From a virus: DNA of 64,000 nt. The notes under the pieces are model-generated. The model saw only the letters and a program-made list of their open reading frames with translations, had not been told where the DNA came from and did not search any database. The DNA lies in the IMG/VR virus record IMGVR_UViG_3300030503_000315, positions 124,001 through 188,000 of that record; one strand, written 5' to 3'. The position numbers and the translations under genes were made by a program. Shown here piece by piece: positions 41,629 to 41,850 of this stretch; position 1 is the first letter of the stretch; each line of letters begins with the position of its first letter.

Positions 41629-41850
41629 TTACGTTGGTTCGAATCCAGCCAGGCGCGCCAAGAGTTCTGCTGTATGTATACTTCATAAGATTGACATTAT
41701 CTGATTGAAGGAGAGGGCCGACGACTTCCGACAGCTCGCCCCTCATAATCCAGAAAACCTATTATGTTTCATAGCGAGTATGGAGTATGGTAGAATTCTT
41801 GACGCGCCTGTGACCCGAGAGGATAGGGCCCAGATTTCTAATCTGGTGTA
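41629..41850 (+). tRNA. candidate permuted tRNA 1 (3' half then 5' half), anticodon TCT
   Basis: The 3' half comes first: T-arm GTTGG TTCGAAT CCAGC (41633-41649), acceptor CAGGCGC (41650-41656), discriminator G, CCA (41658-41660). The 5' half follows 143 nt later: acceptor GCGCCTG (41804-41810, 7 of 7 complementary to CAGGCGC), D-arm CCC-GAGAGGATA-GGG, anticodon arm CCAGA-TTTCTAA-TCTGG (anticodon TCT, Arg; A20 as in tRNA-Arg), then variable-loop bases TGTA. Leader CTTGAC and trailer GCCAAG pair 5 of 6. Joining the two at a shared TA gives a canonical five-base variable loop (TGTAC). A mature tRNA requires ligation outside normal order, so this is a hypothesis. Confidence 0.7.

Follow-up and report, generated by a model that had tools for sequence, protein, structure and literature searches.

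Transfer RNA (tRNA) genes in which the 3' half precedes the 5' half, with an intervening sequence between the two, are known from red and green algae and from Thermofilum pendens, and the break between the halves sometimes lies in the anticodon loop. The algal and archaeal genes carry a bulge-helix-bulge motif, have intervening sequences of 1 to 74 bp and are matured by a splicing endonuclease and a ligase (PMC3978253). Permuted two-piece transfer-messenger RNA (tmRNA; Rfam models RF04321 and RF01849-RF01851) likewise has its T-arm and acceptor 3' strand upstream and its acceptor 5' strand downstream, and tRNA processing enzymes cut its transcripts, leaving two pieces that stay together by pairing (PMC11915505). 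Here we describe two circularly permuted tRNA modules, A and B, both directly downstream of a gene for DUF7873 (PF25283), in a stretch of 64,000 nucleotides (nt) of the 215-kb virus record IMGVR_UViG_3300030503_000315; this stretch is referred to as the window, and coordinates are positions within it. With moderate confidence, we interpret the modules as parts of an undescribed noncoding RNA family with two permuted tRNA-derived domains, which would remain unligated and work with DUF7873 as a tRNA mimic or decoy.

The original prediction placed at module A a permuted tRNA-Arg gene whose 3' half lies upstream of its 5' half across a gap of 143 nt. This order is confirmed in the sequence (41633-41660 and 41804-41850), as is the complementarity of the acceptor strands CAGGCGC and GCGCCTG, and the ends of the linker lengthen the acceptor helix; a TA shared at the junction of the halves, which had been taken as a further sign, is too short for any meaning. 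Module A is called neither by ARAGORN nor by Rfam, which call four ordinary tRNAs in the window. In a T-arm scan of the whole 215-kb record, only two tRNA-like T-arms lacked a normal 5' half upstream, that of module A and one at 41967. The latter belongs to module B, which had been overlooked and whose partner 5' half, beginning with GGCGGAG, starts at 42489, behind an HNH open reading frame (ORF). The acceptor stem of module B is part of an inverted repeat of 20 nt (90% complementary), by which the acceptor helix is prolonged. The features of the locus, all on the plus strand, are:

40632..41429, plus: DUF7873 (PF25283) gene, 265 amino acids (Pfam E 1.6e-53), the proposed protein partner of the RNA.
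41583..41632, plus: segment U, leader of module A; its ACAGG is complementary to CCTGT of segment M, a covarying match in three phages.
41633..41660, plus: module A 3' half, with T-arm GTTGG TTCGAAT CCAGC (41633-41649), acceptor 3' strand CAGGCGC, discriminator G and encoded CCA.
41661..41803, plus: module A acceptor-tip linker, 143 nt, its ends extending the acceptor helix in the predicted fold.
41804..41850, plus: module A 5' half, with GCGCCTG, D-arm and local hairpin CCAGA-TTTCTAA-TCTGG.
41851..41955, plus: segment M, conserved from ATTATCGTTC to GTATTACC in alignments of three phages.
41893-41900 and 41913-41919, plus: segment M strands CAACTGCA and TCGAGTT, respectively, of the common helices.
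41920-41951, plus: segment M hairpin.
41956..41993, plus: module B 3' half, with anticodon-stem strand AATCAGA, T-arm ACGGG TTCGAAT CCCGT, acceptor CTCCGCC, then T and CA.
41984..42003, plus: left arm of the inverted repeat, containing the module B acceptor stem; 20 nt, 90% complementary to the right arm.
41996..42478, plus: HNH endonuclease ORF (PF13392), inside the acceptor-tip linker of module B.
42476..42495, plus: right arm of the inverted repeat, ending in the acceptor 5' strand GGCGGAG.
42489..42519, plus: module B 5' half, with GGCGGAG, D-arm and anticodon-stem strand TCTGATT.
42520..42625, plus: segment D, with TTATCGTAACTA as a possible pseudoknot strand and helices showing compensatory changes.
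42538-42544 and 42558-42565, plus: segment D helix strands AACTCGA and TGTGGTTG, respectively.
42566-42577 and 42579-42621, plus: segment D hairpins, GGA-TTAATA-TCC and a long hairpin, respectively.
42662..42695, plus: inverted-repeat hairpin followed by T-rich sequence, a possible transcript end.

Near the last of these features, a terminator scan gave signal on the opposite strand only, at the level of the shuffle background.

The permuted arrangement is genuine and not a product of chance pairing: in the syntenic homologues L017 and L023, both modules are retained, and their acceptors, though different in sequence, remain complementary. Relatives were traced through their DNA polymerase, and covariance models were built from the window, L023 and L017 (231,255 bp), which we take to be Ralstonia phage RSL1. 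Both permuted modules occupy a syntenic place in the window, in these two records and, as found with the covariance models, in L076 and L078. The acceptor stems of related phages, which the original prediction had proposed to search, thus covary; they are not the unrelated halves that would mark the pairing as a relic of two broken tRNA genes.

The association with DUF7873 extends far beyond these relatives. Among 30 related records, the gene is present in exactly the four that have the RNA. Homologues of DUF7873 occur in phages of Klebsiella, Rhizobium, Vibrio, Arthrobacter, Gordonia and Pseudanabaena, as well as in Streptomyces and Nonomuraea, and at least one permuted tRNA lies downstream in all 13 annotated phage or actinomycete loci that were fetched, with two in many of them. 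Furthermore, 80 viral loci were collected by a scan with the DUF7873 alignment, and equal-length stretches upstream of the gene served as controls: a permuted pair was called downstream in 71 loci, as against two upstream controls, and 29 loci have two or more pairs. Of the nine viral loci without a called pair, two (L131 and L152) do carry a pair, separated by a longer linker, and one (L172) is truncated by the contig end. One Streptomyces copy has a linker of 7 nt. In L131, an HNH-like ORF of another type than that of the window lies in the linker of a permuted module about 180 nt past DUF7873. DUF7873 is absent from 398 sampled Pseudomonadota genomes, matches nothing in PADLOC, PHROGs or NCBIfam, and no mention of it was found in the open-licence literature. 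A sequence search of phages with the RNA region gave no matches, and a search of bacterial genomes for the conserved DNA pattern of the RNA gave chance matches only.

Across the family, modules were detected automatically by simple rules (T-arm, acceptor complement and D-arm) that left out the anticodon stem. Of 105 distinct pairs, 67 have matching anticodon stems (200 shuffles: mean 18.7, maximum 27). In addition, 90 of the 107 acceptor strands are distinct, and a CCA is encoded after the discriminator in 58 of 107, against about 1 in 64 expected by chance. The two halves belong together.

Segments U, M and D make up a conserved core. From the 5' half of module B through segment D, the first 94 columns align without gaps in three phages. 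In the three closest phages, three helices that show compensatory changes are common to segments M and D, namely CAACTGCA/TGTGGTTG, with counterparts CAATCTAA/TTAGATTG and CAATCGCA/TGTGATTG, TCGAGTT/AACTCGA with its counterparts, and the extended anticodon stem. Three helices scoring at least 30 occurred as a set in none of 200 column-permuted controls, among which single helices as good did occur. Similarly, in a family-wide shuffle, segment D and the end of segment M pair better than shuffled partners (7.66 versus 6.49, maximum 6.96). The strand TTATCGTA is able to pair with the loop of the long segment D hairpin in all three phages, a pseudoknot-like arrangement.

The RNA is probably not a decoding tRNA, to judge from the anticodon regions. 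U33 is nearly universal in working tRNAs. With positions numbered from the D-arm, a procedure open to register errors, T33 is present in 19 of the 47 members whose stem is clear. In 29 of these 47, position 32 pairs with position 38 (shuffled mean 16.8, maximum 26), so the helix often extends beyond five pairs; extended stems of Streptomyces B modules include CGTCGAT/ATCGACG, CGACGAC/GTCGTCG and CGACGGC/GCCGTCG. Among jumbo-phage members, the local arm of slot A ends in a UUCG cap in L115 and in 6-nt loops in L114 and L117, and L023 has no normal anticodon arm in this slot. The normal 7-nt anticodon loop with U33 that a joined product should have is therefore not kept across the family. Module A of the window does have a 7-nt loop containing the TCT originally read as its anticodon, but this triplet is not conserved in the slot: homologues differ, and some loops have 4 or 6 nt.

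The module A linker of L023 holds CTCTAATCAGAG, which resembles the anticodon arm of RSL1 module A and may be the decayed remnant of an older 5' half. L017/L112 has, immediately after the permuted pair, a normal-order tRNA with a long hairpin insertion at its anticodon arm (L112:4066-4189). The DNA polymerase gene of the window is divided into ORFs of 774 and 305 amino acids, which overlap in TAATG at 50600-50604; relatives have one ORF of about 1050 amino acids. A role of module B as an amber suppressor (anticodon CTA) was considered and dropped: the HNH gene ends in TAG, the polymerase reading frame breaks at a TAA, and the family does not conserve the loop.

The permuted domains, their covariation, the DUF7873 linkage and the pairing of the core are observed; cleavage, protein binding and a decoy role we infer. 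In the scheme that we propose, each domain would run from the T-arm and acceptor 3' strand through a capping linker to the acceptor 5' strand and D-arm. Helices leaving the anticodon helix in slot B, and the variable region or anticodon helix in slot A, would tie the domains into the conserved core, and the folded RNA would show two L-shaped tRNA elbows. Most likely, the host's RNase P and a 3' nuclease would open the acceptor tips and leave CCA-type ends that are not ligated, on the pattern of two-piece tmRNA. DUF7873 is probably bound by the core, and the resulting complex may mimic tRNA, or serve as a decoy, for factors that handle tRNA. YrlA has been proposed as a possible competitive inhibitor of an anticodon nuclease (PMC7790460), and Mycobacterium phage DS6A is reported, in work cited by a later paper, to encode a tag-less tmRNA that inhibits the cell's own tmRNA (cited in PMC11915505). 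By analogy, both illustrate what such mimics might do. The DS6A molecule, compared by description only, is likewise a phage tRNA-like RNA without a tag, but has a single domain according to that citation.

An unligated, multi-piece tRNA mimic bound by DUF7873 is favoured by the precedent of permuted tmRNA, by the presence of permuted tmRNA in related phages and by the lack of a ligase match in the record, in which RtcB, RNA_ligase and T4 Rnl1-type ligase were sought. Permuted tmRNA genes (RF04321) are found in the related jumbo phages L086 (1470-1778) and L088 (1273-1559) and at a DUF7873 locus, L124 (91-300). Besides the order of its strands, the DUF7873 RNA shares with two-piece tmRNA a helix in place of a decoding anticodon arm, frequent CCA and occurrence in related phages. 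It is distinguished by two tandem domains, a canonical D-stem and a dedicated DUF7873 neighbour. Indeed, the four tmRNA models find no match in the window at E values up to 10, whereas the true tmRNAs of related phages do match; a tag reading frame was not found, and ARAGORN calls no tmRNA in the window but does so in L086 and L088. The ornate phage RNAs GOLLD and ROOL are also large, structured and near tRNA islands, and the GOLLD linker can contain tRNAs (PMC12286853). Neither RNA has an Rfam match in the window, and the tRNA modules of the DUF7873 RNA are, unlike those tRNAs, permuted and part of the fold.

Several points weigh against the mimic interpretation. CCA is missing in about half of the members. 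In those with longer linkers, the acceptor helix runs past the discriminator and the CCA is often paired, which may hinder RNase P. The contact between segments U and M was not significant in a crude family-wide test, and the case for DUF7873 binding is the genomic linkage. Moreover, register errors in the automatic numbering could lower the T33 count, and some members combine T33 with a plausible anticodon.

These last points bear on the alternative of genuine permuted tRNA genes like those of algae and Thermofilum. An RNA ligase, or cleavage and ligation with the help of DUF7873, would then join the halves in the anticodon loop or the variable loop, and RNase P and 3' processing would release a working tRNA. 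We consider this unlikely, though not far-fetched. The locus shares with such genes an upstream 3' half and complementary acceptors; the 58 encoded CCA ends, the tRNA-like D- and T-loops, the matching anticodon stems and a break within the anticodon loop in many members all fit, and RtcB is found in RSL1, so other members may have a ligase. Decoding is nonetheless hard to reconcile with the scarcity of T33, with anticodon helices longer than five pairs, with the 4- and 6-nt caps and abnormal L023 arm of slot A, and with the lack of an RNA ligase match in the window's own record. The family also departs from the algal and archaeal genes in that most members have no normal anticodon loop, in its phage and bacterial setting, and in the module B linker of about 495 nt with its HNH gene. 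The original prediction thus holds as to a permuted tRNA in a phage; a single tRNA-Arg that phage RNA-repair enzymes would rejoin for decoding is not supported, given two modules in a larger conserved RNA, a decoding loop that is not kept and no ligase found in the record. The HAD phosphatase that had been pointed out at 46.6 kb is present, as HAD_SAK_2 (PF18143; 46610-47146), and is of the RNA-repair type. A more general form of the idea, in which a widespread DUF7873-RNA module cuts and rejoins permuted tRNA halves, the structured RNA being itself a ribozyme or guided by DUF7873, appears similarly doubtful; such a module would be the first natural example of permuted tRNA splicing from bacteria and their viruses. 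No description of a bacterial permuted tRNA was found in the literature, where only open-licence papers were covered, so that one may exist elsewhere.

If U, M and D were a split self-splicing ribozyme, in a natural permuted intron-exon arrangement, the RNA would join the tRNA halves itself. The conserved order of the core, helices that bring the junctions together, the pseudoknot-like match of TTATCGTA with the hairpin loop and the 94 gap-free columns could be accommodated in this way. We think it improbable: no catalytic core is recognisable by eye, and a natural-order search of the window at E values up to 10 gave no group I (RF00028) or group II match, although such a covariance search would miss a permuted core because its segment order is permuted.

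It is equally improbable, in our view, that the RNA is a variant of the Y RNA-like tRNA mimic YrlA (RF02553), with DUF7873 replacing Ro60. YrlA contains a tRNA-like domain (PMC7790460), and both RNAs thus carry a tRNA-like module within a longer molecule; several modules of the family also show weak RF02553 similarity, at 24.5-28.3 bits. These scores lie far under the gathering cut-off of 69, and the window has no YrlA match at E values up to 10. Furthermore, the DUF7873 RNA has two modules and not one, and its gene partner is another, as DUF7873 has no TROVE/Ro60 match in Pfam.

Lastly, tRNA genes broken by HNH homing or recombination and paired by chance are a most implausible source, even though HNH cassettes do invade phage tRNA genes (in BcepSauron) and one HNH gene lies in this locus, for the two-slot order, covariation and DUF7873 linkage in dozens of loci refute it. 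In BcepSauron (L016:16100-17330), an HNH gene together with a complete new tRNA-Leu(TAG) interrupts a tRNA-Leu(TAG) gene of which BcepSaruman has an intact copy.

The locus described here gives DUF7873 its first functional context. It represents an undescribed structured RNA family that combines two permuted tRNA-like domains with a protein neighbour that stays the same, and that occurs in some actinomycetes and in phages infecting many different hosts. This makes testable the idea of a phage tRNA mimic aimed at translation, at tRNA-cleaving defences or at trans-translation. Should the halves instead be joined, they would provide the first permuted tRNA splicing known in bacteria.
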